NCBI GenBank assembly: GCA_937949545.1
Contig: CALEDR010000009.1
Location: forward strand, 1-64,000
Reading direction: 5' to 3'
Source: an uncultured Phycisphaerae bacterium
GTDB lineage: Bacteria > Planctomycetota > Phycisphaerae > Sedimentisphaerales > Anaerohalosphaeraceae
Length of the DNA: 64,000 nucleotides
Part shown: one piece after another, positions 26,961 to 45,596 of the stretch
Position numbering within the stretch: position 1 is the first letter of the stretch
How the letters are laid out: the number at the start of each line of letters is the position of its first letter
Program-made: the position numbers and the translations under genes
The notes under the pieces: model-generated
The model's input: the letters and a program-made list of their open reading frames with translations, nothing else
What the model was told of the DNA's origin: nothing
Databases searched by the model: none

Positions 26961-26969
26961 AACCGGCGG

Positions 26970-27524: not shown

Positions 27525-27580
27525 TTTTGGGCTCCTTTCTTGCTTTCTGTTCTACAATCCAACTACCCGAACCGAAAAAA

Positions 27581-27608
27581 ATTCTATCACGACAACACCG
27601 GTTGACAA
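27581..27608 (-). promoter_or_regulatory. Candidate promoter of the SYLF lipoprotein gene
   Basis: On the minus strand, TTGTCA (27608-27603), a 16-base spacer and TAGAAT (27586-27581) precede the lipoprotein ATG by about 56 bases. Both boxes match five of six consensus positions. Confidence 0.5.
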
Positions 27609-27630
27609 TAAGAATCCGAAAATCTTTTTT

Positions 27631-27659
27631 TTGACCTTTCTTCTCTTTATTCGTATAAT
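27631..27659 (+). promoter_or_regulatory. Strong sigma70-type promoter of thiC
   Basis: TTGACC (27631-27636), a 17-base spacer and a perfect TATAAT (27654-27659). Transcription would start near 27666, exactly where the TPP riboswitch begins. Spacing and boxes are close to ideal. Confidence 0.7.
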
Positions 27660-27666
27660 ACTTCGG

Positions 27667-27763
27667 TTCGCTGGGGGTGGTCATAAAAAAGATGACCTGA
27701 GAAAAACCCTTCGAACCTGATCAGGCAAACCGCTGACAGCGGAGACCTGCGTAGGGAAGCGGC
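27667..27763 (+). promoter_or_regulatory. TPP riboswitch (thi box) upstream of thiC
   Basis: The conserved thi-box elements appear in order: GGGGGTG after a short P1 strand, GACCTGAGA, ACCCTTCGAACCTGATC, and finally ACCTGCGTAGGGAA. P1 can form from CGCT (27669-27672) and AGCG (27758-27761). Binding of thiamine pyrophosphate should reduce thiC expression. Downstream, up to the ATG at 27827, no strong hairpin with a T tract is seen, so control of translation initiation is more likely than termination. Confidence 0.93.
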
Positions 27764-27826
27764 CTTTCAGAAGTTCCCTTCTGTGTTCGTTTCCCGCAGA
27801 AAAAAAAACGATAAATCGGAGCATAT

Positions 27827-29143: not shown

Positions 29144-29191
29144 ACCGTTATCCGACATCGGTCTGGAAACATATTTTTTGGGGACAATCAG

Positions 29192-31783
29192 ATGACATCT
29201 TCGGTCAGCACAGGAATCGCCGGCCTCGATGAAATCCTTTGCGGTCTTCGCTGGGGCGACAACGTCGTCTGGCAGGTGGAGCGCATCGGGGACTACCGAC
29301 GCTATGCCGCCGCCTTTGTCGATAAGGCCCTGGCCGACGGCCGCCGTGTCCTTTACATCCGTTTTGCCGACCACGAACCGCTTCTGCCCGAGCATCCCGG
29401 CATTCAAACCATCCGGCTGGATGCCGAAGGCGGATTTGAGAGTTTCTCCAGCCGCATTCATCAGATTATCTCCGAAGCCGGTCGGCTGGCCTGCTACGTC
29501 TTTGACTGCCTGTCGGACCTGCTCAGCGCCTGGGCCACCGACCTGATGATCGGCAACTTCTTTATGGTCACCTGCCCCTACCTGTATGAATGGGACACGC
29601 TGGCCTATTTCGGCATCCTGCGCAACCATCATTCTTTCCATACCATCGCCCGAATCCGCGAAACCACTCAGCTGCTTTTGGATGTTTATCATCTGCAGGG
29701 GCAGGATTATATCCATCCGCTGAAGGTCTGGCGCCGCTATTCCCCGACGATGTATTTGCCGCATATCCGACAAGGAGAGCGGTTTGTTCCCCTCAGCAGC
29801 AGTTTAGATGCGGCCCGGCTTTTTTCCCATTTGTCCGAGCAGGGACTTCAAAGCACGGAACGTATTTTAGATTACTGGGATCGGCTTTTTCTCGAAGCGC
29901 AGGACCTGCAGGGATTGCCGGCCGATACTCCGCAGGTCCGGCAGATGGTGGAGCAAATCTGCCGTGTCATGGTTGGACGCGAAAAACGCATCGGACAGCT
30001 GGCTGGACGCTATCTGACGCTGGAAGACCTGTTGGCTATCAAGAGCCGCCTGATTGGAAGCGGTTATATCGGCGGCAAGACCGCCGGGATGCTCATCGCC
30101 CGCCGCATCCTTCTGGATGACCCTTCTGAAAACTGGCAGGAACGTCTCGAACCGCACGACTCTTTCTATATCGGTTCCGACGTTTTTTACACCTACATCG
30201 TGGAAAACGGCTGGTGGAAACTCTTTATGGAGCAGAAAACGCCCGAGGGCTACTTCCGTGCGGCTGCCGAACTGAAGGAAAAAATGCTGCACGGCAAATT
30301 CCCCGAACCCATCCGCCGGCAGTTTCAGGAAATGATGGAATACTTCGGCCAGTCGCCCATCATTGTCCGCTCCAGCAGTCTCCTGGAGGATTCCTTCGGC
30401 AATGCCTTCGCCGGCAAATACGAAAGCCTCTTTCTGGTCAATCAGGGTGAACCCGAAGAGCGGCTGGCTCGCTTTGAAGAAGCCGTGCAGCGCATTTTTG
30501 CCAGTACGATGAATGAAAACGCCCTCACCTATCGGCTCCAGCGGGGCCTTGCCGGACACGATGAGCAGATGGCTCTGCTGGTTCAGCGGGTCTCCGGCGC
30601 CTATCATCGACAATATTATTTCCCCGCCATGGCCGGCGTGGGCGTCTCGTACAATACCTTCGTCTGGAACGCCTCTCTGGACCCGAAAGCCGGAATGCTG
30701 CGGCTGGTCTTCGGGCTGGGCACCCGCGCCGTGGACCGTGTGGAGGATGATTACCCCCAGACCATCGCCCTCGACGACCCGCTGATTCGTCCCTATGCTG
30801 AGCGCGACGGCGCCGGCCGGTTTTCCCAGCACAAAATCGACCTGCTCGATGTGAGGGAAAACTGCCTCAAGACCCTCAATGTGCAGGAGCTTTTGTCGGA
30901 ACCGATCGATTTACCGCTGGACCTGATTGTTTCGCCGGATGAATATCTGATGCGCCGCCTGCAGGAAACGGGACGCTGCGACGCCAAAACCTACTACCTG
31001 GTTACCTTCCGCAAACTGCTGGCCGAAACTCTGTTTCCGCAGCTGATGCAGCGGCTCTTAAAGACGCTCGAGGCCGCTTATCAGTATCCGGTCGATATTG
31101 AGTTTACCGCCAATTTCACACAGGACGGCCAGCTGCGAATCAACCTTGTCCAGTGCCGGCCGCTGCAGACCAAAGGAATCCGCGCCGACGTCCGAATGCC
31201 GGCCGAGGTCCCTGATGAAAAGGTTCTGCTCAGCACGGAGGGATTTACGATGGGGCCGAGCGTCTCTTTGCCAATTCATCGGATAGTCTATGTGGTTCCG
31301 GAACCTTATCTGGACCGTCCGCAGAATCAAAAATACGAAGTCGCCCGCCTCATCGGCCGGCTGAACCGAATGATTGAAAACCGTGAAAAGACGTCCGTGC
31401 TGCTTTTGGGGCCCGGACGTTGGGGCACCAGTACGCCTTCGCTGGGCGTGCCGGTGCGGTTTGCTGAAATCAGCAATGTTTCTGTGCTGACCGAAATCGC
31501 CTGCGAGGGAAGCAATCTCATCCCCGACCTGTCCTTCGGGACGCATTTCTTTCAGGATTTGGTCGAAAGCGACATTTTCTATATGGCCGTCTTTCCGGCC
31601 CGCCCGGAGGTCCTTTTCCGCGCGGAATGGTTCCTGAATTGCCCAAATGCTCTGCAGGAGTTCCTCCCCGATGCCGCCGACTATTCGGATACAATCCGGC
31701 TTATCTGCCTCGACAAACTCGGCATTTCCCTCCATCTTATCAGCGACATCGTCTCCCGACGTTCCCTCTTATTTTTGTCATAA
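29192..31783 (+). CDS. KaiC-like domain fused to PEP/pyruvate-binding (PPDK_N-like) domain
   Basis: An 863-residue cytoplasmic protein of two unlike halves. Residues about 1-235 resemble a RecA/KaiC ATPase (STGIAGLDEILCGLRWGDNVVWQ, then GRRVLYIRFADH), but the expected Walker A glycine-lysine loop is replaced by WQVERIGDY, so nucleotide binding is doubtful. Residues about 285-863 resemble the ATP-grasp domain of PEP synthase and pyruvate phosphate dikinase: SGYIGGKTAGMLIARRIL, PIIVRSSSLLEDSF with FAGKYESLFL (about 390-410), and a final INLVQCRPLQTKG. The phosphohistidine and PEP-binding domains are absent, so it cannot run the full dikinase cycle. It may phosphorylate an unknown acceptor. A GGGGA site precedes the ATG. 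Confidence 0.8.
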   Translation: MTSSVSTGIAGLDEILCGLRWGDNVVWQVERIGDYRRYAAAFVDKALADGRRVLYIRFADHEPLLPEHPGIQTIRLDAEGGFESFSSRIHQIISEAGRLACYVFDCLSDLLSAWATDLMIGNFFMVTCPYLYEWDTLAYFGILRNHHSFHTIARIRETTQLLLDVYHLQGQDYIHPLKVWRRYSPTMYLPHIRQGERFVPLSSSLDAARLFSHLSEQGLQSTERILDYWDRLFLEAQDLQGLPADTPQVRQMVEQICRVMVGREKRIGQLAGRYLTLEDLLAIKSRLIGSGYIGGKTAGMLIARRILLDDPSENWQERLEPHDSFYIGSDVFYTYIVENGWWKLFMEQKTPEGYFRAAAELKEKMLHGKFPEPIRRQFQEMMEYFGQSPIIVRSSSLLEDSFGNAFAGKYESLFLVNQGEPEERLARFEEAVQRIFASTMNENALTYRLQRGLAGHDEQMALLVQRVSGAYHRQYYFPAMAGVGVSYNTFVWNASLDPKAGMLRLVFGLGTRAVDRVEDDYPQTIALDDPLIRPYAERDGAGRFSQHKIDLLDVRENCLKTLNVQELLSEPIDLPLDLIVSPDEYLMRRLQETGRCDAKTYYLVTFRKLLAETLFPQLMQRLLKTLEAAYQYPVDIEFTANFTQDGQLRINLVQCRPLQTKGIRADVRMPAEVPDEKVLLSTEGFTMGPSVSLPIHRIVYVVPEPYLDRPQNQKYEVARLIGRLNRMIENREKTSVLLLGPGRWGTSTPSLGVPVRFAEISNVSVLTEIACEGSNLIPDLSFGTHFFQDLVESDIFYMAVFPARPEVLFRAEWFLNCPNALQEFLPDAADYSDTIRLICLDKLGISLHLISDIVSRRSLLFLS

Positions 31784-31844
31784 ATCCCTATCCGTTTTAC
31801 CCTTTTCTCCGACCTTTGCAGATACTCCAATACCGACAGCCTGC

Positions 31845-31881
31845 TTTGTGGATACCAGAACCGCCTTTCAGTATCCACAAA
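31845..31881. repeat. Perfect 11-base inverted repeat
   Basis: TTTGTGGATAC (31845-31855) and GTATCCACAAA (31871-31881) flank a 15-base loop. It lies about 60 bases after the KaiC-like fusion and about 210 before the PEP-CTERM gene. There is no T tract on either side, so it is not a standard terminator; an operator or an RNA processing stem is possible. The rest of this 309-base gap (31784-32092) is AT-rich, ends in a GGAGAAGGAAAG ribosome-binding site, and shows no gene. Confidence 0.5.
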
Positions 31882-32092
31882 CGAACTTGTGATTAATGGA
31901 ATGCCGGCCAATCTTTGTTCTTATTTCCGCTCCAAGGCAAATATAATAACAACTTGCTTTTTTTCACAAAATCTGCGCAAAGCGCCCTATTTAACGGCTA
32001 TTGCTTTAAGGAGTACCCTTGTCCCGTGTGTGTGAAGTGTGGCGAATCGTGAACAAACACAAACAAATCGTAAGTCTTTAGGAGAAGGAAAG

Positions 32093-32758
32093 ATGAAGGC
32101 AAAAGCAATTCTGTGTCTGGTTTCTCTTGTTCTGACATCCTCCGCCTGGGCTGACGTTGTCGTCGGCAATTTTGAAAATTCCACCGACGGCTGGTGGACC
32201 GGCGGCTGGCGACCGGGCGACTCCTCCACCCCCGTACAGGCCAACGCCACCCTGGGTGAGTGGTCGATGAAAATGACGCAAGTCCTCGGAGGATGGGACA
32301 ATACGATTGAAGGTGCCTTGCTGGGAACCCCAGCTCAGGCCGCACTGGCCGCCTATGGAAAAGTTTCCGTGGATATTACTACTTTCGCCAATGATTTCCC
32401 TGCCGGCTGGGCTTCCATCGGCCTGCTGATTAACACCGGTCTCGGTGCCGAAGGCGGCTGGGCGCAGACGATGTGGAACGTCTTTGACTGGCAGAATGTG
32501 GCTATCGGAACCACACAAACCATCGTCTTCCAGATTTCTGCAGAAGCGATGGCCAAGATGGGCGGCGCCACCGGCTGGGCCAACATCGGCTTTATCAGCA
32601 ACACCGGCAACAACGAAAATGACCCGATTACCGGGGAACCCGTTTATCCGGCGATGGCGATTTACTACTTTGACAACATCAAAGTGCTGGTTCCGGAACC
32701 GGCATCATTGATCCTGCTGGGGCTGGGCGGATTGTCCGTCCTTCGCCGCAGGTGGTAG
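32093..32758 (+). CDS. PEP-CTERM secreted protein with NFEN-type module
   Basis: A 221-residue exported protein. A signal peptide (AILCLVSLVLTSSAWA) ends at about residue 20. The C-terminus VPEPASLILLGLGGLSVLRRRW is a complete PEP-CTERM sorting signal: VPEP, hydrophobic helix, basic tail, recognised by an exosortase. The mature part (VVVGNFENSTDGW, then GWASIGLLINTG, GWANIGFISNTG and MAIYYFDNIKVLV) looks like a beta-sandwich carbohydrate-binding module. It is related to the N-terminal module of the LamG protein at 35210. GGAGAAGGAAAG precedes the ATG, a strong site suggesting high expression. No exosortase is in the window. Confidence 0.85.
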   Translation: MKAKAILCLVSLVLTSSAWADVVVGNFENSTDGWWTGGWRPGDSSTPVQANATLGEWSMKMTQVLGGWDNTIEGALLGTPAQAALAAYGKVSVDITTFANDFPAGWASIGLLINTGLGAEGGWAQTMWNVFDWQNVAIGTTQTIVFQISAEAMAKMGGATGWANIGFISNTGNNENDPITGEPVYPAMAIYYFDNIKVLVPEPASLILLGLGGLSVLRRRW

Positions 32759-32777
32759 CAGGAGGAATCCGGAGTGT

Positions 32778-32818
32778 AAAAACGGGCTTGTTCGCTTCCG
32801 GCAGGCAAGCCCGTTTTT
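32778..32818 (+). terminator. Rho-independent terminator after the PEP-CTERM gene
   Basis: Arms AAAAACGGGCTTG (32778-32790) and CAAGCCCGTTTTT (32806-32818) pair over 13 bases around a 15-base loop, ending in five Ts. The A tract on the other side makes it usable from both directions. It separates the PEP-CTERM gene from the sigma factor gene. Confidence 0.88.
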
Positions 32819-32950
32819 CTTCCATTCCGGAACGGGGGGAATAAAATGTTCCCTGGCCGAGAAAAAACCGCTGAGAAACCGTGTTTTCGGCTATTGCAGA
32901 AGGGGCGGGTGTGAAAGACGGACTGCAATCTAACGCAGGGAATTGGGACA

Positions 32951-33502
32951 ATGACACAGGAAAACGAAAAAACATCCGATTTTCTGAAGGCCCGAACGCC
33001 GTTCGTCAAACTGCTCACGGCCAATCACGCCCGAATCTATGCCTACATCATCAGCATGGTCCCCAATGATTCGGACGCCGATGACATCATGCAGGAAACG
33101 GCGGCGGTGATGTGGAGAAACTTCCACAAATTCGAGCCGGGAACCAACTTCGTTTCCTGGGCGGTTACCATCGCCAAATATCAGATTCTGAATTACCGAA
33201 AACAGAACAAACGTTCCCGCCTGTGTCTGAGTGAAGAGGCCTATGACCTGCTGATTTCCGAAACGGAAAAGGTGCAGGAGCAGAGCCAGGACCGGCTTCA
33301 GGCCCTGCGAAACTGCCTGAATAAACTGTCCGACAAGGACCAGCAGTTTATCCGGATGCGCTATTATGACGGCTCCAGTGCCCGTCTTGTGGCTCAGAAA
33401 GTCGGTGCGTCCATTGATGCCGTGTATCGTTATACCGCTCGGCTGAACGACTGGCTGCTGAATTGTGTGCGGCGAACGCTGGCGGCGGGAGAACGAACAT
33501 GA
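32951..33502 (+). CDS. ECF sigma factor, Rhodopirellula/Verrucomicrobium type
   Basis: A 183-residue sigma factor. Region 2 runs from LLTANHARIYAYIISMV through DADDIMQETAAVMWRNFHKF and FVSWAVTIAKYQILNYRK. Region 4 is LNKLSDKDQQFIRMRYYDGS followed by the helix-turn-helix ARLVAQKVGASIDAVYRYTARL. The W-R-N-F-x-x-F and F-x-x-W-x-x-x-I-A strings are typical of the planctomycete/verrucomicrobial ECF group. Its stop overlaps the start of the FecR-like gene (ATGA), so the two act as a regulator pair. It lies inside a block of glycan-related genes, which are its most likely targets. Confidence 0.92.
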   Translation: MTQENEKTSDFLKARTPFVKLLTANHARIYAYIISMVPNDSDADDIMQETAAVMWRNFHKFEPGTNFVSWAVTIAKYQILNYRKQNKRSRLCLSEEAYDLLISETEKVQEQSQDRLQALRNCLNKLSDKDQQFIRMRYYDGSSARLVAQKVGASIDAVYRYTARLNDWLLNCVRRTLAAGERT

Positions 33503-35160
33503 ATGCAGATGATAAAATCCTGTACCGAGTGCGGTATCTGATCTGCAAGTCGCTGGACGGGCGAATTGAAGAGGAAGAAATCCGCGAGCTGGACCGTCTG
33601 ATTGTCGAACAGCCGCTGGTCCGCCGGTATTATGTGGAGTTTCTGCAGATTCATATGCACCTTCGGACCCTTCTGGAACATGCTCCGCAGACCGCCTGTG
33701 CGACGGAGGAGGTTTTGGATGCGCAGCTGTGGCAGCAGCTGGCCCGGCACGAACAGACGGCAGAGCTGGTGCCGATGGAACGTCCGGCTGAGCCTGCCGT
33801 TTCGGAACCGCCGGCTGCTCCGCTGCCCCCGCGCCGCCGCGTCAGCCGCCTGTCCTTGTTTGGAATAGCGGTTTCCGTTGCTGCCATGCTCTTTATCGTG
33901 GTGTATGCGCAGTTTTTTGCTTCGCCGGCGGTAGCAACCCTGACTGATTCGGTCAATGCCCGCTGGGCCTCCGGCCAAAATCCTCTTCAGCCGCAGGACC
34001 GTCTTTCCGTCCGTCCGAAAGAACTGCTCAGCGGCTTCATTTCCATTCGTTTCGATTCCGGCGCCGAAGTCGTGCTCGAAGGTCCCGCCCGTTTCAAGCT
34101 GCTATCGGAAAACCAGATGCGTCTGTTCAGCGGAAAGGCCTTTGCCTCCGTTCCCAATACCGCTATCGGTTTTACCGTTGAATGTCCCGGTTCGCGCGTG
34201 GTGGATTTGGGCACGGAATTCGGACTGGAAGTCCGCAGCGGCGGCCAGGCCGAGGTGCACGTAATGAAGGGCAAAATCAATCTCGTGGCCGGGGTACAGG
34301 GAACGCCGCAGACCAGCGAAATCCTTCAGCCGGCCCAGGCGCGTCGGGTCGAATCGGATGGAAAAATCCGGCCCGCCGAGTTTAAGGAATTGTATTTTGC
34401 CCGAAAGATTTCCTCGCAGGAGCAGTTCGTCTGGTACGGACAGACCTATTTGGATTTGGCGGATTTGGCCGCGGGCGGCAGCGGAACGGACATCAGCCGT
34501 TCTCGGAGCGGCATTGACCCTTCCTCCGGGCGCATCAATCCGGAGGCCGAACAGGGCTATCTGCGAAGCGGTTCAATCGCATATCATCCCGTTGCAGCTC
34601 TGGCGGTTGTGGACGGGGTGTTTGTTCCCAACGGCAATCAGGGACCGGTGCAGGTCTCTTCCGCCGGGCATACATTCGGCGGTTTTCCGGGGACAGCCGG
34701 GGAATACTGGGCGGATATCCTCACCCAGCCGATTATTTACACCGCCCGCCTCGGCGACAATCAGGAACTCCTGAAAGGCCAGCCGATGGAGGTGTCGCTG
34801 GAGCCGTCCAAAACGCCTTCTTCTGTGCTGGTGATTCATTCAAACGCCGGCATTACGTTTGACATGGACGCCCTGCGGCGGCAGTATCCGAATCTGGAGA
34901 TTGTCCGCTTTACCGCCCGCTGCGGCGTTTCGGCCAATGCGCTGGCGCAAATGGCCAATGAATTCTGGGTGCTCGTAGACGGCCAGGTGCGTTTCCACCA
35001 TCTCAACCCGCATCAGCAGGCATCGATTCAGAAAATCAGCATCGAGATTCGTCCGGAGGAGCGGTTTTTAACGCTGGCCGTCACCGACGGCGGCGACGGA
35101 ATCAGTTACGACTGGTGTCTGTTTGAACAGCCGCGCCTGGAATGGAGAGGAAAATACTGA
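33499..35160 (+). CDS. FecR-like membrane regulator with NPCBM-like tail
   Basis: A 553-residue single-pass membrane protein. The N-terminal about 110 residues (RYLICKSLDGRIEEEEIRELDRLI) form an anti-sigma-like cytoplasmic domain. A membrane span is at about 118-140 (LFGIAVSVAAMLFIVVYAQFF). A FecR domain follows outside (FISIRFDSGAEVVLEGPARFK, then ECPGSRVVDLGTEFGLEV). The C-terminus (FTARCGVSANALAQ, FWVLVDGQVRFHH, LTLAVTDGGDGISYDWCLF) resembles the NPCBM carbohydrate-binding module. The architecture suggests sensing of a sugar or polysaccharide outside and release of the sigma factor inside. The ATG at 33499 overlaps the sigma stop. Confidence 0.82.
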   Translation: MNADDKILYRVRYLICKSLDGRIEEEEIRELDRLIVEQPLVRRYYVEFLQIHMHLRTLLEHAPQTACATEEVLDAQLWQQLARHEQTAELVPMERPAEPAVSEPPAAPLPPRRRVSRLSLFGIAVSVAAMLFIVVYAQFFASPAVATLTDSVNARWASGQNPLQPQDRLSVRPKELLSGFISIRFDSGAEVVLEGPARFKLLSENQMRLFSGKAFASVPNTAIGFTVECPGSRVVDLGTEFGLEVRSGGQAEVHVMKGKINLVAGVQGTPQTSEILQPAQARRVESDGKIRPAEFKELYFARKISSQEQFVWYGQTYLDLADLAAGGSGTDISRSRSGIDPSSGRINPEAEQGYLRSGSIAYHPVAALAVVDGVFVPNGNQGPVQVSSAGHTFGGFPGTAGEYWADILTQPIIYTARLGDNQELLKGQPMEVSLEPSKTPSSVLVIHSNAGITFDMDALRRQYPNLEIVRFTARCGVSANALAQMANEFWVLVDGQVRFHHLNPHQQASIQKISIEIRPEERFLTLAVTDGGDGISYDWCLFEQPRLEWRGKY

Positions 35161-35209
35161 AAAAACAGGATCGGATTTATGAATTCATAAAAAAGGAAAG
35201 GGGAAGCAG

Positions 35210-37405
35210 ATGAAAAGACATTGGTTTTCAGTTTGTACGGTATTCGGACTTCTTTTTGTGTCCGCAAGTTTTTCAATGGACCCGATTTTAATTGGGAATT
35301 TTGAAAATGGGCCGGACGCCGGGTATACACCTCCTCGCTACGACCACTGGTTCAACGGCGGGCTGGCGATTTCCGATACCTTGCTGCCGGCCGTGGCGGC
35401 CACACGCGGAACCCATTCGTTAAAATGCGTGGACGCCGACGGCGGCTGGGGTGCTACGGTTCAGCTCCCTTTGTTTGTGATGGGCAATAGTTTAGACAAC
35501 CCCTGGATTCAGGCCATTCTGTCTCCGAACAGTGTCGTCTCCGTCGATGTGACCGCCTTCGCTTCGGAAGTCGCCGGCGGCTGGTGTGAATTGGGATTTA
35601 TCCACAATACAGCGGCCCCAAGCGGCGGCTGGAATCTCTATATGTGGCAGCCCTTGATAATAGACGGCTTGCCGCATCGCTACATATTCACCATGGATGA
35701 GGAAACGCGAAATTCTATTATCAACGCTATCGGCGGGTGGGGGGCCAATATCGGCTTCGGCATCAATACTGGTTCCGGCAGCACCACCATTTATATCGAC
35801 AATGTCTGGATATGGCCCGAAGGGTTGGTGGATGAATTTGGGCCTCGCAATCCTTCCGTCGAGCAGGAATTTGCCCTCAATCCGGAATTTGTCAGTGCGA
35901 TTCTCAAGTGGAGGCCGGGAGGGGACCCCAACGGACAATACGAGGTCAATCCGCTCATTGTGGATGAATATGTTTTTATAAGCAAAACAATCAATGACCC
36001 CAATCTTTATTACCACGGCAGAACGGCTGTGGATCCCGGCCTGACAGCTACCGAATCGCAATACGGCCCTGTGCTTCTTCCAATCAACAGCACCTTCCGC
36101 TGGGCGGTTGTGGAAGCCGTAGAAGGATTGGAACAAACCTTTACCATCGGCGTCAGCACACTGGCGGACGTGGAACCCAACAATATCATCGGGCCCATTT
36201 GGTCCTTCAACACACTCAGCACCCTGCCGGTCATTACGGCTCAGCCGGTCAGCACCCGCTATTTGATCGGAGGTCCCAACCCGCAGTTTACTGTCACCGT
36301 TCAAAGCGTTACGACGCCCAGTTATCAGTGGTATTTCTCCCAGGACGGTGTGATTGACGCCTCCGATACAGCCATCAGTGCTTCAATCGGCGGAAACAGT
36401 CCGACTCTGACAATCCCTTCGCCCAACAAGGCCTATCAGGCCTATTACTACTGCCGTATCTGGAATGCGGCGACTCAGTCCGGAGGAGGTTCTTTCCCGG
36501 ATATTTACTCCGATGTTGTCACCCTTGTTGTGGAGCGCAAGGTGGCGGAATATCTGTTTGACGGCAATCTGAACGACAGCAGCGGCCACGGCATCAACGG
36601 CACCGGTGTCGGCAGCCCGACCTTTGCCCCGGGCGTCGGCGGCGGGCAGGCGCTGTCTTTGAATGGGGTCAATCAGTATGTTGCGCTGGGCAACAACGGC
36701 TTCCCGAAGGCCAGTCTGCTGGATGCCGGCGGTATCGGCGGCGGTCTGGACAGAGGGTCGGTCGTTTGCTGGGTGAAGGTCAATTCCGTGCCGGGCGGGG
36801 AGCCCTACAGCAAGGTGGCGGCGATTTTGTCCGGCTGGAATCACGGAGACGGCTGGCCCCATACGGCTTTCGAATTGGCCGTAGAGTCCGATTTGGATTC
36901 CACCTATACAAACGCCCGAGCCCTTGTGCTCGGTGAGACAGCTCAGGTATCGTGGGTCTCCTGGCGGCCGACATGGGTGAACAACTTCAACATGGCCGGG
37001 GACGGGCAGTGGCATCTGATTGCGGCGACCTGGGCGATGGATGACATCATGCGGGTCTATGTGGACGGCAGTCTCATCGCCACCTCAGGCAATGCCTCCA
37101 GCAGCACCTTCCTGCCGTGGGTTAACGGAATGCTCATCGGGGCTTCTCCTCAGGATACGCAGGGCGGCATCCATCGGTACTTCAACGGACTGATTGACAA
37201 CCTGCGGGTGTACAATTACGTGCTGACTCCGGAGACCATTGCTCAGGAATACTACAACCTGACGGGCAAACCCGGCTGCATCTATACGGACTTCCCGGGC
37301 AGCAACTTCAACGTGGATAACACCGGAACGTCTTATTGCCGCGTCGATTTGGCGGACTTTGCCCTGATGGCTCAGAACTGGCTGGCAGAGGGATTTTATC
37401 CGTAA
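35210..37405 (+). CDS. Secreted multi-domain LamG protein with dockerin-like C-terminus
   Basis: A 731-residue exported protein. After a signal peptide ending near residue 22, residues about 25-210 are a module related to the PEP-CTERM protein at 32093 (ILIGNFENGPDAGY, GWGANIGFGINTGSGSTTIYIDN). Next come a segment seen in planctomycete LamG proteins (EYVFISKTINDPNLYY) and an Ig-like domain (PVITAQPVSTRYLIGGPNPQ through YYYCRIWNAAT). A LamG/concanavalin-like domain follows (VAEYLFDGNLNDSSGHGING to LIDNLRVYNYVLTPETIAQEY). The end (CRVDLADFALMAQNWLAEGF) is a single dockerin-like repeat common in Phycisphaerae. AAAGGGGAAG precedes the ATG. It probably binds polysaccharide at the cell surface. Confidence 0.83.
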   Translation: MKRHWFSVCTVFGLLFVSASFSMDPILIGNFENGPDAGYTPPRYDHWFNGGLAISDTLLPAVAATRGTHSLKCVDADGGWGATVQLPLFVMGNSLDNPWIQAILSPNSVVSVDVTAFASEVAGGWCELGFIHNTAAPSGGWNLYMWQPLIIDGLPHRYIFTMDEETRNSIINAIGGWGANIGFGINTGSGSTTIYIDNVWIWPEGLVDEFGPRNPSVEQEFALNPEFVSAILKWRPGGDPNGQYEVNPLIVDEYVFISKTINDPNLYYHGRTAVDPGLTATESQYGPVLLPINSTFRWAVVEAVEGLEQTFTIGVSTLADVEPNNIIGPIWSFNTLSTLPVITAQPVSTRYLIGGPNPQFTVTVQSVTTPSYQWYFSQDGVIDASDTAISASIGGNSPTLTIPSPNKAYQAYYYCRIWNAATQSGGGSFPDIYSDVVTLVVERKVAEYLFDGNLNDSSGHGINGTGVGSPTFAPGVGGGQALSLNGVNQYVALGNNGFPKASLLDAGGIGGGLDRGSVVCWVKVNSVPGGEPYSKVAAILSGWNHGDGWPHTAFELAVESDLDSTYTNARALVLGETAQVSWVSWRPTWVNNFNMAGDGQWHLIAATWAMDDIMRVYVDGSLIATSGNASSSTFLPWVNGMLIGASPQDTQGGIHRYFNGLIDNLRVYNYVLTPETIAQEYYNLTGKPGCIYTDFPGSNFNVDNTGTSYCRVDLADFALMAQNWLAEGFYP

Positions 37406-37436
37406 TCGTCACAGAAAAACGTTCCTTGAGGATGAC

Positions 37437-37466
37437 GGGGCCTGCGAAAAAGCAGGCCCTTTTTTT
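37437..37466 (+). terminator. Rho-independent terminator after the LamG gene
   Basis: GGGCCTGC (37437-37444) pairs with GCAGGCCC (37451-37458) around a six-base loop (GAAAAA) and is followed by seven Ts. It cleanly ends the sigma/FecR/LamG block, so the GH94-GH5 genes need their own promoter, which was not identified. Confidence 0.93.
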
Positions 37467-37565
37467 GTTTTTTTCCAAAAATAATCTTTACAGAAACCCC
37501 TAATGCAAATATTTTAGACAGCAGAGAAATCGCTGCACAAAAAACAGCACAAAAAGGACGGCAAA

Positions 37566-40028
37566 ATGGAGACAGCATCTAAGTACGGTTTTTTTGACGA
37601 GGCGGCTCGGGAATATGTCATCACGCGTCCCGATACGCCACTGCCGTGGATAAACTATCTGGGATTTCAGGACTATCTGGGGATTATTTCGAATACGGCC
37701 GGCGGGTACAGTTTCTACCGCGATGCCAGGCTGCGGCGGATCACCCGTTATTTTTACAATGCGGTGCCGAAAGACAATCCCGGCCGTTATCTGTATCTCT
37801 GCGACGGGCGACACACCTGGAATCCGAGCTTTAAGCCCATGCGGCGCCCGCTGGATTTTTACCAGTGCCGTCACGGTCTCGGCTATACCGTGATTACCGG
37901 CCGGCTTGACGATATCGAGGTCCAAACAACTTATTTCGTGCCGGTTGATGAGGATGCGGAGGTGTGGGCGGTCCGGCTGACCAATCACGGCCGACGCAAA
38001 AAGACCATCGACCTGTTCAGCTATGCGGAATTTTGCCTGTGGAACGCCTGGGACGATGCCACCAATTTTCAGCGAAACTGGAACACCGGCGAGGTCGAAG
38101 TCGAGGGCAGTGTGATTTACCACAAAACCGAGTATCGCGAACGCCGCAATCATTACGCCTTTTTTGCCTCCAGCGAGCCGGTTGTCGGATTTGACACCAG
38201 CCGCGATGCGTTTCTGGGCAATATGAATGATTACGGCTGTCCGGAGGCTGTGCTCCGGCGGCAGTCCTTCCACAGCATCGCCCACGGCTGGGCGCCAGTC
38301 GGGTCCCACCACCTGCGGCTGTCGCTGGAGACCGGTCAAACCCGTTCGTTCCATTTTGTTCTCGGGTATCTGGAAAATCCGCCCGAGAAAAAATTTTCCG
38401 CCCCCGGTGTGCTCAACAAAGAGCGGTGTTATGACCTGCTTAGGCGTTTTCAGACAACCGAGCAGATTGAGGAAATGTTTCAGCAGCTTCGGCGGCACTG
38501 GGAGCGGCTTCTGAGCACCCTACAGACCGAGACAGACAATCCGCTGGTTCGGCGGATGGTCAATACGTGGAATCCGTATCAATGTATGGTTACGTTTAAT
38601 GTGTCTCGTTCGGCCAGTTCGTTTGAGTCCGGCATCGGGCGGGGGTTGGGGTTTCGGGATTCCAATCAGGACCTGCTCGGTTCTGTGCAGATGGTGGCCG
38701 CGCGGGCCCGGCAGCGCATTCTCGATTTGGCCGCCACGCAGAACTCCGACGGCACCTGCTATCATCAGTACCAGCCGCTGACCAAACAAGGCAATCACAA
38801 GGCCGGCACCGGCTTCAGCGACGACCCTCTGTGGCTGATTGTTTCGACGGATGCCTATATCCGCGAGACCGGCGATGAATCGATTCTCGATGCCCCCGCG
38901 GGATATGCGGACAAACCCCAGAGTGCCGAGCGTACAACCCTGCTGGACCATCTGCATCAGTCGGCTCGTCGGGTGCTGGCCGACCGCGGGCCGCACAATC
39001 TGCCGCTGATCGGCCATGCCGACTGGAACGATTGCCTGAATCTGAACTGCTTCAGCAATACCCCCGGCGAAAGTTTTCAGCTGGCCGGCGATATTAAAAG
39101 CGGCCGGGCTGAATCCGTGATGGTCGCCCAGCTGTTCATCTACAGCGCAGGCCGGCTGGCGGCCCTGCTGCGCCGGCGCGGCGATGCGGCGGCCGCAAAC
39201 GCCTACGAAAAAGAGGCCGCCGCGATGAAAGAGGCCGTGATGCAGTTCGGCTGGGACGGAAAATGGTTTCGGCGGGCGTATGACCATTTTTCGCGGCCCG
39301 TGGGCTCGGCCTCCTGCGATGAAGGCAAAATCTTTATTGAAACCCAGGGCTGGGGCGTGATGGCCGGTATAGGGCTGGAGGATGGAAAAGCCCGACAGGC
39401 CCTCGACAGTGTCTGGGAATATCTGGCTGACGAAAACGGAATGGTCCTCGTGCAGCCCGCTTATACCTATTACCGCGACTATCTGGGCGAAATCACCTCC
39501 TATCCGCCCGGTTATAAGGAAAATGCAAGCGTCTTCTGCCACAACAACACCTGGATGATTATCGCCGAAACCATCCTCGGACGCGGGGACAAGGCGTGGG
39601 AGCTGTACCGGCGGATTTGTCCGGCAGCCAAAGAAGACCGGCTGGATATTTACCGCAGCGAACCCTACTGTTTTGCTCAGACCATCGCCGGCAGAGATGC
39701 CCCGCGGCCCGGGGAGGCCAAAAACTCCTGGCTGACCGGCACCGCTTCCTGGACCTATGTCGCCCTCACGCAATACATACTGGGGATTCGGCCTGAATAC
39801 GACGGGCTGTGCATTGACCCGTGCATCCCGCCGGACTGGAAAGGTTTTGTTGTGCATCGGCTCTTTCGCGGCTGCCGCTATGAAATTCACGTGAGCAATC
39901 CGGCCGGTGCGATGAAGGGCATTCGCCGCCTGTTGGTGAATGGAAAACCAATTTCGGGACAAGTCATACCGGTTTTTCCGGCCGGCCAAACCGTTTGTGT
40001 TGATGCAGAAATGGGGGTGAAAGAATGA
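37566..40028 (+). CDS. Cellobiose phosphorylase (GH94)
   Basis: An 820-residue family 94 glycoside phosphorylase, cytoplasmic, converting cellobiose and phosphate to glucose 1-phosphate and glucose. The N-terminus (KYGFFDEAAREYVITRPDTPLPW, then SNTAGGYSFYRDARLRRITRY) is close to the known cellobiose phosphorylases. The catalytic general acid lies in IGHADWNDCLNL, Asp486. FESGIGRGLGFRDSNQDLLG and GFSDDPLWLI form the sugar site. The length is standard, and the absence of a signal peptide fits an intracellular role. GGACGG precedes the ATG. Its stop overlaps the GH5 start (ATGA). Cellodextrin or chitobiose phosphorylase activity is a less likely alternative. Confidence 0.92.
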   Translation: METASKYGFFDEAAREYVITRPDTPLPWINYLGFQDYLGIISNTAGGYSFYRDARLRRITRYFYNAVPKDNPGRYLYLCDGRHTWNPSFKPMRRPLDFYQCRHGLGYTVITGRLDDIEVQTTYFVPVDEDAEVWAVRLTNHGRRKKTIDLFSYAEFCLWNAWDDATNFQRNWNTGEVEVEGSVIYHKTEYRERRNHYAFFASSEPVVGFDTSRDAFLGNMNDYGCPEAVLRRQSFHSIAHGWAPVGSHHLRLSLETGQTRSFHFVLGYLENPPEKKFSAPGVLNKERCYDLLRRFQTTEQIEEMFQQLRRHWERLLSTLQTETDNPLVRRMVNTWNPYQCMVTFNVSRSASSFESGIGRGLGFRDSNQDLLGSVQMVAARARQRILDLAATQNSDGTCYHQYQPLTKQGNHKAGTGFSDDPLWLIVSTDAYIRETGDESILDAPAGYADKPQSAERTTLLDHLHQSARRVLADRGPHNLPLIGHADWNDCLNLNCFSNTPGESFQLAGDIKSGRAESVMVAQLFIYSAGRLAALLRRRGDAAAANAYEKEAAAMKEAVMQFGWDGKWFRRAYDHFSRPVGSASCDEGKIFIETQGWGVMAGIGLEDGKARQALDSVWEYLADENGMVLVQPAYTYYRDYLGEITSYPPGYKENASVFCHNNTWMIIAETILGRGDKAWELYRRICPAAKEDRLDIYRSEPYCFAQTIAGRDAPRPGEAKNSWLTGTASWTYVALTQYILGIRPEYDGLCIDPCIPPDWKGFVVHRLFRGCRYEIHVSNPAGAMKGIRRLLVNGKPISGQVIPVFPAGQTVCVDAEMGVKE

Positions 40029-41140
40029 ACAATGTCCAGAGAAAACCGGAGTGGGCCGGATTCAGGCCGGTCAGAAGAACCATCGGCTTCTTTCTGTTTC
40101 TTGGGGCCTTGGCCGCCGCCGCTGTACCTCGGCTGCATGCGGAAGGGACGGTTCTCAAAGACCCGGCAGGCAATGTGGTGGTCCTGCGCGGCGTGTCTTT
40201 GATTGATGTAGGCGGGACGGAAAAGCAGTTCGGCGGGGCGATTCGAATGATTGACCGGCTGACCAACCGCGATGACCCGCAGGGCTCTTCACCCGGCTGG
40301 TATCCGAAGGTCATCCGCATCCCGATTTATCCGCCGGATGAAGAGGATTACAAAAGCCCGTGGACGTTTATCCCCGGCCGGGATGATTTCTATGAGAAGC
40401 TGCTGCGGCCTGTGGTGGACTACTGCAAAAGCAAGGACGTGTATGCCATTGTGGACTGGCACTACATCGGCAACACCTTCGACCATCGCGAAACGACGCG
40501 GCAGTTCTGGGAGTATATGGCGCCGCGGTTTGCCGACGACAGCCACGTTATCTTTGAGCTGTTCAACGAGCCGATTAACAAGGTCGGCACAGACGAGGCA
40601 TGCTGGCTGAGTGTCCGCCAGGATATGCAGGAGTGGGTCAATCTGATTCGGCGGCACGCCCCGCGGACACTGCTGCTGATTGCCGGCGCCAACTATTCAC
40701 AAATCATCGGGCCTGCCGCCGACCATCCCATCGACGACCCCATCGGAAACAAAAACTATGCCATCGTCTCCCACATTTATCCGCTGCACTGGCTCAGCGA
40801 AAATGCTCAGTGGTACAAAGACCATATTCTCCGCTGCGCAAAAGTGCATCCGGTCTTTATGAGCGAATGGGGCTTCAGCCGCACTTTCCGTCACCGCAGC
40901 GTTCCGCCGGCCACGATTGACAACTACGGACGGCCTTTGATGGACTGGATTGAACAGTTCAAAATCAGCAGCACCTGCTGGGCCGCCAGCTACGACTGGG
41001 AACCCAGACTGTTCAACCCCGACTGGACGCTGCGATGCGGGCCCTATGAGATGGGCTGCTTTCTGAAGGATTATCTCTACGAAAAGCGGAACGATGACCA
41101 GCCGGCCCAGCCGGAGCATCCATCGGCTTCTTCACCGTAA
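40025..41140 (+). CDS. Secreted GH5 endoglucanase-like enzyme
   Basis: A 371-residue family 5 glycoside hydrolase with a (beta/alpha)8 barrel. An N-terminal hydrophobic segment (TIGFFLFLGALAAAAVPRLHA) preceded by basic residues is a signal peptide of about 39 residues. The acid/base glutamate is Glu182 in FELFNEPIN and the nucleophile is Glu281 in VFMSEWGFS. VIRIPIYPP, IVDWHYIGN and AIVSHIYPLHW supply other conserved family residues. It overlaps cellobiose phosphorylase by four bases, suggesting that its products are cellobiose-type disaccharides. No binding module is attached. It converges on the minus-strand chaperone block, with nine bases between the stops. Confidence 0.9.
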   Translation: MNNVQRKPEWAGFRPVRRTIGFFLFLGALAAAAVPRLHAEGTVLKDPAGNVVVLRGVSLIDVGGTEKQFGGAIRMIDRLTNRDDPQGSSPGWYPKVIRIPIYPPDEEDYKSPWTFIPGRDDFYEKLLRPVVDYCKSKDVYAIVDWHYIGNTFDHRETTRQFWEYMAPRFADDSHVIFELFNEPINKVGTDEACWLSVRQDMQEWVNLIRRHAPRTLLLIAGANYSQIIGPAADHPIDDPIGNKNYAIVSHIYPLHWLSENAQWYKDHILRCAKVHPVFMSEWGFSRTFRHRSVPPATIDNYGRPLMDWIEQFKISSTCWAASYDWEPRLFNPDWTLRCGPYEMGCFLKDYLYEKRNDDQPAQPEHPSASSP

Positions 41141-41149
41141 AAAAGAAGA

Positions 41150-42298
41150 TTATCCGCGACTGCTTCCGGAGGCCTGACGGGCGAACCGGCTGCGGCACTG
41201 GGCAATCAGGTTCAGCATCTGGTCGGCTTGCCGGCGGACAGCCGGGTCCGGATGGGTCACCCGGGTGTTCCACTTGCGGTATTCACTGGTGAGTTTCTCA
41301 AGGATTTGTGCTTCCGTCATCCGCTCATGAAGCCCCAGCAGGAGCATCGGGTCCTGGATGTGTTCGGCCTGGCGGCTCAGGTATTTCTGCACGAGGGCCT
41401 CCCAGCGGTCTTTGGGGATTTCCAGATTGGCGGCAAGGGTCTGAAGCTCCCTCAGAAGCGGCTGGGAAATCGATTCGCCGCAGGCAGCAATCCGCATACA
41501 GATTTCCAGAACGGCGTAGCCGTCGGCAGGGTCCGCATAGCCCGCCAGCTGCTCGCACGCTTCCCGTGCGAGGGCGGCGGCCTGCTCCACCGTTCCAACG
41601 GCGGGCTCGGCGGCAGGCAGCTTCCGCTCCTGCAGCCACCGATCCAGCAGCTCTTTGCCCCCCGGATTCGGTGCCGTCATCTGCCAGACAGCCGAGGCCA
41701 TCTGACGCATCGCATTCTGCTTGGCCAGCCGCTGCTGCTGAATTTCCTCATAGCCGAAGTGTTCGGACAGCAGCGAAACTTGGCTTCGTGCACAGGCCAG
41801 GGCCTTGCCGGCTGTCTGGTCCAGAACGGTCACTTCGCATTCGAGGACCGCCGGTCCGCGCCGCGGAAAGACCAGCTCCCAGACGCCGATTTCGGCAACG
41901 GTGACCCAGTCCTTCAGGACCGACACCCGTGCCGGCAGCAGGCCGTTGTGAAAGTGGTATTGATGGGCGGGTGTGCCGTCCGAGGTCCATTCCGTGCGGC
42001 GGCACAGCACCGGTTTGACGGTTCCTTTGTCGGTCGCATCGGTCAGCTGAATCAGCAGGTCGGTATCACAATTCGGATGCGGGGCACGAATCGCACCCTG
42101 AATCTGGATTTTTAATACATCCCGGCAGCCGGCGGCCGTTTCCTCCTCAAACACAAGCACCCGACAGACAAACCGCCGCGGGTCCAGGGCGGGTATCAGC
42201 ACACTGAGCCATCGCCGCAGACAGGCCGGGCCGAGGGCCGCTCCAATCGCTCCCAGCGTCAGCACAACAATCAGAATGCTCAATACCCGTTCCGTCAT
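41150..42298 (-). CDS. Membrane-anchored protein with J-domain-like C-terminus
   Basis: A 382-residue protein with one N-terminal membrane span (residues about 4-24). The middle (about 50-170) looks like a beta-rich domain, followed by a helical region. The last about 60 residues read LLLGLHERMTEAQILEKL, then EYRKWNTRVTHPDPAVRRQAD, and end in a helix. This has the order of a J-domain (LLGL start, acidic helix, Y-R-x-W, HPD at 349-351, A-x-x-L-x-x-I helix) but is divergent. It lies two bases after a lidless Hsp70 gene and downstream of a GrpE-like gene, so a co-chaperone role is a reasonable inference. A coincidental match is still possible. Confidence 0.6.
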   Translation of the reverse strand: MTERVLSILIVVLTLGAIGAALGPACLRRWLSVLIPALDPRRFVCRVLVFEEETAAGCRDVLKIQIQGAIRAPHPNCDTDLLIQLTDATDKGTVKPVLCRRTEWTSDGTPAHQYHFHNGLLPARVSVLKDWVTVAEIGVWELVFPRRGPAVLECEVTVLDQTAGKALACARSQVSLLSEHFGYEEIQQQRLAKQNAMRQMASAVWQMTAPNPGGKELLDRWLQERKLPAAEPAVGTVEQAAALAREACEQLAGYADPADGYAVLEICMRIAACGESISQPLLRELQTLAANLEIPKDRWEALVQKYLSRQAEHIQDPMLLLGLHERMTEAQILEKLTSEYRKWNTRVTHPDPAVRRQADQMLNLIAQCRSRFARQASGSSRG

Positions 42299-42300
42299 CC

Positions 42301-43851
42301 TCAGCGAACCTGGAATTTGGCGATTTCCTCTGTTTTCTGATGGATGGATCTCTGAACGGCAGCCCCGTCGGGCGTCAGAGATAGATCCACTTCCAGCATA
42401 CGGCCCGACTCCTCGTCGCAGAACGTGCAGTGCATCCGCTGGTTGAGGTCATAACTGTATCGAACCAGAATCGGCCGATTGGCCGGACGATTGGGCGGCA
42501 GTTCGAAGATTTCCGTGGCAATCTTGTTGACAAAGTCCGGGTCTTCGTCTTCTCCCTGCGTGATGGTAATCTGAAGTTCAGTCTGTCCCTCGCACATTGT
42601 ATAGAATGTCTGGGTGGCCTCACAGGGCAGCGGCGTATTCTTTTTCAGCAGGATGCTGTTCCGAATGACATGCTTGCCCGTGGCCTCATCGAACGGAGCA
42701 CACAGGGTGCCGTAGCTGTGGTTGCAGACGTCCTTGAGTTTGATGTCGCGCAGGCCGGCGACGATGCCCGCCTCAACCTTTTCAGGGTGCTGCCGCAGAA
42801 GAGTCAGGCCGGCGTGGATGGCCGCCCCCAGCGCCACACACTCATCGACGTTGACGGCCACCAGCGGGGGTTTGCCGAATCTTTCCGTCAGCCGCTTTTG
42901 CACCAGCGGAATGCGGGTGCTGCCGCCCACCAGCAGAACCTGGTCAATTTCTTTGATCGTGCAGCCGGCCTCCTGGAGACTGACGTCAATAAGCATCTCT
43001 GTGCGGCCGACCAGCGGTTCGACAGCCTCTTCAAACTGGGCCTGTGTAATTTCAATCCGGGCGCTGCCGGCTTTGCCGTATAAAATCTTTTTGGCGACCG
43101 GGCGCCGTGAGAGGGTCTTTTTCACATCTTCGGCCTCATCTTCGTATTGGGCCTGCTCCTGCGAGTTGGTAATCAGCGGCTGGCCGGTCTGTTCCTGGTA
43201 GGTTTTTTCGAACATCTGAAGGATTTTCCGGTCAAAGTCCACTCCGCCCAGTGCGTGGTCTCCCTGATTGCAGACAATCTGAATATTCTGACCGCTGACG
43301 TCCATAATCGTCACATCGAACGTTCCGCCGCCCAGGTCATAGACCAGCACCCGGCCCTTGACATCGTGTGTGGTTGCATAATAGAGAGCCGCTGCCACCG
43401 GTTCATTGACAATGCCGATCACATTCAGCCCCGCCATCTCACCGGCGTCCATTGTGGCTTTTCGGCGAACCTCGTCAAAATGTGCCGGCACGGAGATAAC
43501 GACATGCTGAATGTTCGGATAAATCATCTCCGCATCCTGTTTGAGTTTCTTCAAAATCAAACTGGAGATTTCCTCCGGCGCCCAGATGCGATTGCCGAAA
43601 GTCTTTCGCCACTGGGAATCACCCATGTGCCGCTTAATCCAGCGGATAGCCCTGTCCGGATTGAGCTGCCGGCAGTTCAGCGCCTCGATGCCGACACGAA
43701 CCGTGGCATCCTGATCTTCATCAAAATACACCACAGACGGCGTCAGCCGCTCTCCTTCGCTGTTCGGAACCACTTCGGGACGTCCGATTTTGTTCAGGAT
43801 GGCCAGCGCCGAAAATGTGGTTCCCAAGTCTATGCCTGCTATCATGCCCAT
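42301..43851 (-). CDS. Hsp70-family chaperone lacking the lid
   Basis: A 516-residue DnaK-like protein. The ATPase domain is intact: phosphate 1 loop AGIDLGTTFSALA, NEPVAAALYYATTHD, phosphate 2 loop VYDLGGGTFDVTIMD, and VLLVGGSTRIPLVQ. A beta-type substrate domain follows (about 390-500: SILLKKNTPLPCEATQTFYT, QTELQITITQGE). DnaK normally has about 610-640 residues; the alpha-helical lid and the EEVD-like tail are missing here. Neighbours are a GrpE-like exchange factor 28 bases upstream and a J-like protein two bases downstream. The protein itself has no membrane span and would be drawn to the membrane by its partners. This is a specialised paralogue and not the general DnaK. Confidence 0.9.
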   Translation of the reverse strand: MGMIAGIDLGTTFSALAILNKIGRPEVVPNSEGERLTPSVVYFDEDQDATVRVGIEALNCRQLNPDRAIRWIKRHMGDSQWRKTFGNRIWAPEEISSLILKKLKQDAEMIYPNIQHVVISVPAHFDEVRRKATMDAGEMAGLNVIGIVNEPVAAALYYATTHDVKGRVLVYDLGGGTFDVTIMDVSGQNIQIVCNQGDHALGGVDFDRKILQMFEKTYQEQTGQPLITNSQEQAQYEDEAEDVKKTLSRRPVAKKILYGKAGSARIEITQAQFEEAVEPLVGRTEMLIDVSLQEAGCTIKEIDQVLLVGGSTRIPLVQKRLTERFGKPPLVAVNVDECVALGAAIHAGLTLLRQHPEKVEAGIVAGLRDIKLKDVCNHSYGTLCAPFDEATGKHVIRNSILLKKNTPLPCEATQTFYTMCEGQTELQITITQGEDEDPDFVNKIATEIFELPPNRPANRPILVRYSYDLNQRMHCTFCDEESGRMLEVDLSLTPDGAAVQRSIHQKTEEIAKFQVR

Positions 43852-43879
43852 AGTCTTCTGTCCTTATGCTGTCCTCGCT

Positions 43880-45247: not shown

Positions 45248-45596
45248 AAACGGCCTCGTTTGGAGGTTGAGGTTTGGCGCCGGCGGCCCGATTCACGGCA
45301 GGGCCCGACTCTTTTGCGCTTCACAAAATAAAATCAGGGCGGACCTTCGTTCCGGCAGGTCCTCGTCTTTTAAACTATAACAATCAATCCGCATTCTCTT
45401 ATCGGCCAAACTGAAGCGGCAGGTAAGCCCCCAAACTTTTTTTGAAAAAAGAAAACGCTGTTTGCCATCGGAGGAACCTTCAGAAAAGTTTTTATCGGTC
45501 TTTGGCTCCGGATTCAGAACAGGATGCCGGCCGAATGTTCGTTCGACTTTCTGGATGGACGGAGAATGTCTGATAACTCGTTTTTTTCGGAGAGAA
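45248..45596. other. Intergenic stretch upstream of the chaperone block
   Basis: These 349 bases lie between the GrpE-like gene and the stop of the membrane/helical-repeat gene, both on the minus strand. They should hold the promoter of the chaperone block, but no convincing -35/-10 pair was found. A minus-strand open frame of 116 codons (45293-45643) crosses the region and overlaps the upstream gene; its product resembles nothing known and it has no clear ribosome-binding site, so it is not called. Confidence 0.4.

Follow-up and report, generated by a model that had tools for sequence, protein, structure and literature searches.

What does an ECF sigma factor control, and to what does it respond, when its anti-sigma partner ends in a predicted sugar-binding domain and its operon lies directly upstream of a cellobiose phosphorylase and a cellulase-like enzyme? 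Planctomycetes use many polysaccharides, and to our knowledge little is known of how they sense them. The window analysed here is a stretch of 64,000 nucleotides from an uncultured Phycisphaerae bacterium (assembly GCA_937949545.1, contig CALEDR010000009.1, positions 1 to 64,000 of the forward strand), whose genome of 2.84 Mb in 52 contigs is referred to as G000, with C9 the contig that carries the window; G000 to G005 are six genomes of one genus, and G024 and G028 belong to another genus. An earlier note on this DNA had read the locus as a cellulose-use locus wired to a sigma/anti-sigma sensor. We consider it probable, from sequence comparison and structural models, that the sigma factor (SIG) and its partner (FECR) instead form a one-protein surface-signalling switch, a putative glycan sensor with lectin-like surface proteins as its output and with GH94-GH5 as a separate unit.

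Locus layout and the FECR sensor

The genes concerned are as follows.

32093..32758, + strand: PEP1, secreted CBM22-like jelly-roll protein with a PEP-CTERM anchor (Pfam/NCBIfam, AF2)
32951..33502, + strand: SIG, ECF sigma factor, TIGR02989
33499..35160, + strand: FECR, one-pass anti-sigma regulator, its membrane span assigned to the AF2 helix at 117-139
35210..37405, + strand: LAMG, secreted, with a PEP1-like module, Ig, LamG (Pfam) and a dockerin-like tail (by eye)
37566..40028, + strand: GH94 cellobiose phosphorylase, a neighbour, probably a separate transcription unit
40025..41140, + strand: GH5, secreted and cellulase-like, a neighbour in the same unit as GH94 (signal sequence by eye)

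This gene order agrees with the earlier description of a sigma gene and an overlapping FecR-like gene between two secreted proteins with a common module, followed by a cellobiose phosphorylase and an overlapping secreted GH5. SIG scores 153.2 bits against the TIGR02989 cut-off of 124.55 and is thus a member of the TIGR02989 ECF sigma factors, and the FECR gene overlaps it by 4 bases. The N-terminal module common to PEP1 and LAMG is 32% identical over 190 aligned positions (E 3e-18), and PEP1 ends in a PEP-CTERM anchor by Pfam/NCBIfam, a signal whose sorting needs exosortase. The AF2 model of PEP1 (pLDDT 83.5) is closest to Xyn10B (2w5f, Z 16.4) and to CBM22 domains (Z 15.5-15.9; 4xuo 15.8, 1dyo 15.5), with CBM27 and CBM15 reaching Z 14.4; because several CBM families score so close together, the jelly-roll fold is clear and the CBM family is not. 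LAMG starts 50 bases 3' of FECR, the gene order at LAMG is kept in G003, G004 and G005, and LAMG is likely in the same operon as SIG-FECR. The GH5 gene overlaps GH94 by 4 bases. Against the cellobiose phosphorylase 3qde GH94 reaches 1070.5 bits, and against the best chitobiose phosphorylase structure 427.2; by its closest characterised sequences it is a cellobiose phosphorylase, and the nearest solved relatives of GH5 (4hty and 8bn7) are both named cellulases. The sole Rfam match over positions 26000-46000 is an ordinary TPP riboswitch (27663-27774, RF00059, 57.9 bits) ahead of a thiC-like gene at 27827, the latter named by eye.

Two segments of FECR lie beyond its membrane helix.

34003..34437, + strand: juxta-membrane periplasmic beta domain of FecR/PupR type, amino acids 169-313, with the GT motif at 238-239
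34441..35154, + strand: CBM51/NPCBM sensor tail, amino acids 315-552, standing in place of the STN subdomain (2vmg, Pfam NPCBM)

Pfam matches in FECR are to FecR (27.7 bits, cut-off 24) and NPCBM (34.3 bits, cut-off 23.9), both over cut-off, and the AlphaFold2 model, made with 46 aligned sequences, has a pLDDT of 82.8 and a pTM of 0.61. In this model residues 169-313 resemble FecR-type periplasmic beta domains (4m0n, Z 15.4; PupR 6ovk, Z 15.1), and residues 315-552 of 553 resemble the CBM51 structure 2vmg (Z 14.6, rmsd 2.2, 139 of 145 aligned), with the next chain other than CBM51 at Z 8.9. The modelled fold is thus in keeping with the earlier proposals that the tail is a carbohydrate-binding module and that sensing passes through a sigma/anti-sigma route with an outer CBM-type tail. 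By sequence alone the tail is weak (best PDB match E 0.33), and of the 46 aligned NPCBM-type relatives 45 have a Pfam FecR match and 34 an NPCBM match at E 0.01. A first family search with PF07639 was a dead end. Most of the best 80 named FECR relatives come from MAGs labelled Planctomycetota, Sedimentisphaerales, Anaerohalosphaeraceae or Phycisphaerae/Phycisphaerales; close relatives at two loci (L304 and L357) are on MAGs labelled Balneolaceae and Anaerolineae, and these are probably misbinned planctomycete contigs, or otherwise cases of transfer.

FECR has the features of a FecR-type regulator, namely an overlapping cognate ECF gene, an N-terminal cytoplasmic domain, one membrane helix and a juxta-membrane all-beta domain. 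It also has, by predicted fold, an extracytoplasmic carbohydrate-binding domain on the anti-sigma factor as in RsgI. The Pfam scan of FECR gave no STN subdomain, with residues 315-552 modelled as CBM51 instead, and no RsgI domain. The GT motif is invariant in all 46 aligned sequences, GT[EQ]F is present in 83 of the 87 complete FecR partners of the genus, a hydrophobic 19-residue stretch occurs in 92/92 partners checked (minimum mean hydropathy 1.80), and the genome encodes an S2P-type protease. The GT motif is tied to FecR self-cleavage (PMC8144685).

The candidate promoter motif and its predicted targets

Aligning the regions upstream of PEP1 and SIG in G000, G003, G004 and G005 gave the core CGGCTATTGC, which occurs within two longer sites in the window.

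31965..32006, + strand: candidate ECF promoter motif before PEP1, core CGGCTATTGC at 31995-32004, matrix score 40.3, the window's best
32858..32899, + strand: candidate ECF promoter motif before SIG, core CGGCTATTGC at 32888-32897, matrix score 37.4, the window's second

In 4/4 genus genomes with SIG the motif lies upstream of SIG, of PEP1 and of an unlinked prepilin-like gene, which in G000 is at C9:66171-67028, 34 kb away, and has an N_methyl match. The site is 51-76 bases before the prepilin-like gene start in these four genomes; in G004 gene calling had put it within the open reading frame, and a second look gives a pilin start behind the site. The consensus from 12 sites is aAAAa-n3-CGC.aA-n13-CGGCTATTGCT..AgGG, and the matrix was built from 7 of the 12, including both window sites and the G000 pilin site. 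The third-best score in the window is 13.7, and held-out PEP1 and SIG sites of G003 and G004 score 30.1-40.8. Pilin sites fit less well, with that of G000 (in the matrix) at 28.9 and that of G004 (held out) at a poor 17.4. Outside the genus, the upstream region of the SIG relative in G028 (57% identical) scores 28.4 and that of the relative in G024 a weaker 15.9, and the best of 93 other genus sigma upstream regions scores 10.1. The earlier note had proposed a search for a motif common to the regions upstream of 32093, 32951, 35210 and 37566; one is present before the first two of these genes and was not found before the last two.

The core was matched 81 times in the six genomes versus 62 times for a reversed control, so CGGCTATTGC alone does not predict targets. 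Among the 69 of 81 match contexts examined, 47 are within called genes. Three other sites recur in two or three genomes, and we did not count them as targets: the first sits where a gene resembling EtfB by eye begins (G000, G004), the second is followed by no called gene (G003, G004), and the third falls within or next to a coding region (G000, G003, G004). Within the genus, PEP1 orthologs (94, 94 and 52% identical) were found in no genome that lacks SIG; in G001 and G002 the closest PEP1 matches reach 33 and 39% identity. A search for a 9-mer common, in all members, to the upstream regions of the sigma gene and another gene singled out the SIG orthogroup alone among 17 orthogroups with at least 3 members, and two others gave partial cases. 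G001 has no SIG ortholog in the sigma tree, and its pilin gene keeps the motif with one mismatch (score 35.9), so another sigma may read it there. In G002 the pilin ortholog (L288, G002:C65) lies directly behind a different sigma-FecR pair and lacks the motif; this target has possibly been rewired to another sigma.

The genes switched on are most likely those of cell-surface proteins and not the adjacent cellulose-use genes. In the mechanism that we propose, the cytoplasmic anti-sigma domain of FECR would hold SIG at the inner membrane, and FECR would cross the membrane once, continuing into the FecR/PupR-type beta domain and then into the CBM51 tail in the place of the PupR STN subdomain. A glycan meeting the tail would set off stepwise proteolysis as in FecR, with GT self-cleavage followed by S2P, and the freed SIG would read the bipartite motif before the SIG-FECR-LAMG operon, PEP1 and the unlinked prepilin-like gene. 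The output would be a lectin-like surface coat made up of a PEP-CTERM-anchored CBM22-like protein, a LamG protein and a pilin-like fibre.

Many other pairs of the genus have similar surroundings. TIGR02989-type sigmas number 15 in this genome at E < 1e-25 (14 above cut-off), and 15, 25, 14, 18, 16 and 10 in G000 to G005, 98 in total; 92 of the 97 parsed have a downstream partner, and the other 5 are at or near contig ends. A survey took in the 74 complete pairs whose contigs run on for at least 2.5 kb downstream, and looked from 1.5 kb upstream to 4 kb downstream: a PEP-CTERM or prepilin-like open reading frame is nearby in 53 and a protein with a dockerin-like tail in 48, and a PEP-CTERM or prepilin neighbour is found in 24 of 29 orthogroups. 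A rough background is 9 such PEP-CTERM/prepilin frames in 198 kb around motif matches, about 0.25 per 5.5 kb, a density that is if anything too high because these loci were partly chosen by the motif and include the pilin and PEP1 targets themselves. In 39 of the 74 pairs the PEP-CTERM or prepilin gene starts no more than 300 bases behind FecR, where a second promoter would be unnecessary.

These surroundings also bear on a different view of the ligand, in which the tail binds an exopolysaccharide or surface glycoprotein made by the cell itself, so that the switch balances the envelope coat rather than sensing food glycans. The surface nature of the predicted targets, the frequent PEP-CTERM, prepilin and dockerin-like neighbours and the lack, among the predicted motif targets, of genes for transport or sugar catabolism are all consistent with such self-sensing, but the 10-25 sigmas of the same type in each genome, together with several lectin folds, fit many external ligands better, and we regard it as rather unlikely, if the strongest of the alternatives.

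GH94-GH5, a probable separate unit

A sensor of external glycans could also serve cellulose use itself, as the earlier note had supposed, with cellulose or cellobiose, sensed by FECR, leading SIG to induce GH94 and GH5 at a locus free of SusC/SusD. The region between LAMG and GH94 bears directly on this reading.

37437..37460, + strand: intrinsic terminator closing the sensor operon, behind LAMG, with 9 pairs (7 G-C) and a T-run
37487..37515, + strand: sigma70-like promoter TTTACA-17-TATTTT for GH94-GH5, from a consensus scan

The terminator is the longest of 12 terminator-like sites in the region, for which shuffles give 10.7, and sigma70-like sites number 4 versus 4.5 expected from shuffles; since neither count is above the shuffles, it is position and conservation that matter. 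The terminator is recognisable in G001, G003 and G004 and altered in G005, and the GH94 promoter is kept with small changes in the same three genomes and is not evident in G005. Upstream of LAMG, GH94 and GH5 the matrix scores no higher than -5.8, 1.4 and -3.6, compared with 37-40 at the window sites, and motif-driven wiring of GH94 was without support in the alignment, the matrix and the consensus scan alike.

The island of sensor genes and GH94 are collinear neighbours in G000, G003, G004 and G005, and because four of the six genus genomes keep both together their adjacency is not pure chance. In G001, the reading frames of GH94 and GH5 are intact (85% and 84% identity) and the sensor island beside them has decayed, leaving upstream the last 25 LAMG codons with the stop and a FecR-like fragment (E 0.007). 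In G002, GH94 occurs without the island, with another gene preceding it and the contig ending behind it. Beyond the genus, 17 genomes have a GH94 match, and in the 9 whose GH94 surroundings were fetched (L132-L140), several of them on short contigs, no SIG, FECR or LAMG relative lies beside it. Conversely, no GH94 accompanies the SIG/FECR relatives of G028 and G024 on the short contigs that carry them, and a search of both genomes at E 1e-80 gave no GH94 match. The genome has one other GH94 match, a paralog at G000:C27:56560-58899 that is 38% identical, and none of the other 14 sigma genes is on its contig.

On the side of cellulose induction are this collinearity and the nature of the enzymes, with GH94 nearest to cellobiose phosphorylases and GH5 to named cellulases, and the description of the locus as one without SusC/SusD stands, there being no SusD match in the genome (a Bacteroides control matched) and no SusC-type gene in the locus. 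Against it are the missing motif before GH94, the terminator and sigma70-like promoter that intervene, and the persistence of GH94-GH5 in G001 and of GH94 in G002 without the island, and the CBM51 structures matched by the FECR tail have titles that name methyl-galactose and GlcNAc, not cellulose. We therefore judge control of the cellulose-use genes by SIG to be quite unlikely, and GH94-GH5 is probably a neighbouring unit with a housekeeping-type promoter.

Exchange of sensor ends and relation to known signalling systems

By profiles built for this analysis, the partner tails in the genus are NPCBM in 65 cases, LamG in 21 and neither in 6 (4 of the 6 cut by contig ends), and Pfam finds both FecR and LamG in 20/20 LamG-type partners. 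A third sensor type is a tandem of CBM96 and NPCBM (L159:3498-5783, L175:3411-5801, L052:8420-10606). The C-terminal regions of two further FecR partners (L206:3501-5315 and L185:801-2744) have no Pfam match besides FecR, and are possibly additional sensor types, L185 perhaps being frame-shifted. A quick tree of the sigmas accounts for the tail types with only 7 changes, so that tail type is for the most part stable.

The exceptions clearly point to exchange of sensor ends near the membrane helix between pairs, this locus included. Here the tail is NPCBM in G000, G003 and G004 and LamG in G005, with the neighbours in the same order, and identity in G005 falls from 84% for SIG and 54% for the cytoplasmic part to 24% for the periplasmic part, with the drop at the membrane helix. 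In a second orthogroup (sigma 74-93% identical) the tail is NPCBM in G003, CBM96 plus NPCBM in G004 and, in G001, one to which Pfam assigns no family, FecR being the sole match of that protein, and the drop between G003 and G004 starts about 40 residues behind the helix start. The opposite pattern is seen in three pairs with dissimilar sigmas and similar sensors: sigma, cytoplasmic and periplasmic identities are 35, 26 and 66% for G003_C41/G001_C14, 39, 30 and 65% for G003_C7/G003_C48, and 31, 22 and 59% for G001_C44/G000_C52. The rise starts at the helix in all three, and in G003_C7/G003_C48 it is strong only in the first 200 residues (the FecR domain), the tail being 35-57% alike. By comparison, periplasmic identity over paralog comparisons has a median of 35% and a 99th percentile of 49%, and it is below 35% in 4 of 110 ortholog comparisons, three of which involve G005 at this locus. 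The correlation of sigma with periplasmic identity over all paralog comparisons (Spearman -0.13, n=3455) is uninformative, so that the evidence for exchange comes from the outliers. Many of the high periplasmic identities come from partners truncated by a contig end, and only complete partners were used. Contig breaks fall within FecR domains at the end of C16 and the start of C30 in G000, and at the start of C21 and the end of C31 in G001; the FecR stretches there are 86-89% alike in DNA and belong to pairs with different sigmas, and recent copying of sensor segments may be what splits the contigs.

The closest functional analogue of FECR is RsgI. According to PMC4711584, the SigI/RsgI systems of Clostridium thermocellum likewise comprise multiple sigma/anti-sigma pairs per genome, mostly with overlapping genes, the anti-sigma factors carry C-terminal carbohydrate-binding domains of different families, which bind cellulose, xylan or pectin, and the sigma genes lie behind predicted promoters of their own kind. 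In contrast, the sigma factor here is a TIGR02989 ECF protein and not SigI, and the N-terminus of FECR is not of RsgI type, differences that place it outside the RsgI family. Moreover, the membrane-proximal part is of FecR/PupR type, the host is a planctomycete, the predicted targets are surface proteins and not cellulosomal enzymes, and sensor ends are seen exchanged near the membrane helix.

The other comparator is FecI/FecR and PupR signalling which, as described in PMC7186176, PMC11637429 and PMC8144685, similarly has an ECF sigma beside a one-pass regulator with an N-terminal anti-sigma domain, a periplasmic beta domain and the GT motif. In PupR, residues 110-238 form the juxta-membrane domain and residues 250-324 the STN domain, and binding to the transducer requires both subdomains (PMC7186176). 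Here CBM51 or LamG replaces STN and the neighbourhood is without a transducer gene, so FECR falls outside classical FecR signalling on both counts. That an unlinked TonB receptor works FECR, with the CBM tail incidental, is very improbable, for while the genome does encode such receptors (13 Plug match rows, 12 over cut-off), none was found on C9 or in the sigma neighbourhoods fetched, STN was found in 0 of the 8 Plug proteins scanned, and the FECR tail matches CBM51 right to its end. The polysaccharide utilisation loci of Bacteroidetes are glycan-responsive gene sets under FecI/FecR-like sigma/anti-sigma control; they differ from this locus, which has no SusC-type gene, lies in a genome where no SusD was found and has its sensor built into the anti-sigma factor. 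Among the papers listed in searches of one open-access collection, no title or abstract describes FecR proteins that end in LamG or NPCBM; a paper about iron in Bacteroidetes (PMC10434189) contains both words FecR and LamG.

The switch proposed for SIG-FECR is a concrete circuit, with a defined sensor domain, a promoter motif and three target units, and with natural swaps to show which half carries the input. More broadly, and tentatively, with slightly less than even confidence, we picture the genus as a bank of plug-in glycan sensors, in which output halves (the sigma and the cytoplasmic anti-sigma domain) and input halves (the FecR beta domain with a CBM51, LamG, CBM96+CBM51 or other tail) may recombine near the membrane helix, and in which a receptor placed on the anti-sigma factor would free FecR signalling from the TonB transducer. 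If so, a fixed surface-coat regulon would gain a new glycan signal with its sigma and promoters unchanged, the FecR and RsgI kinds of signalling would be joined, and the pairs would provide ready-made chimeras for glycan biosensors.
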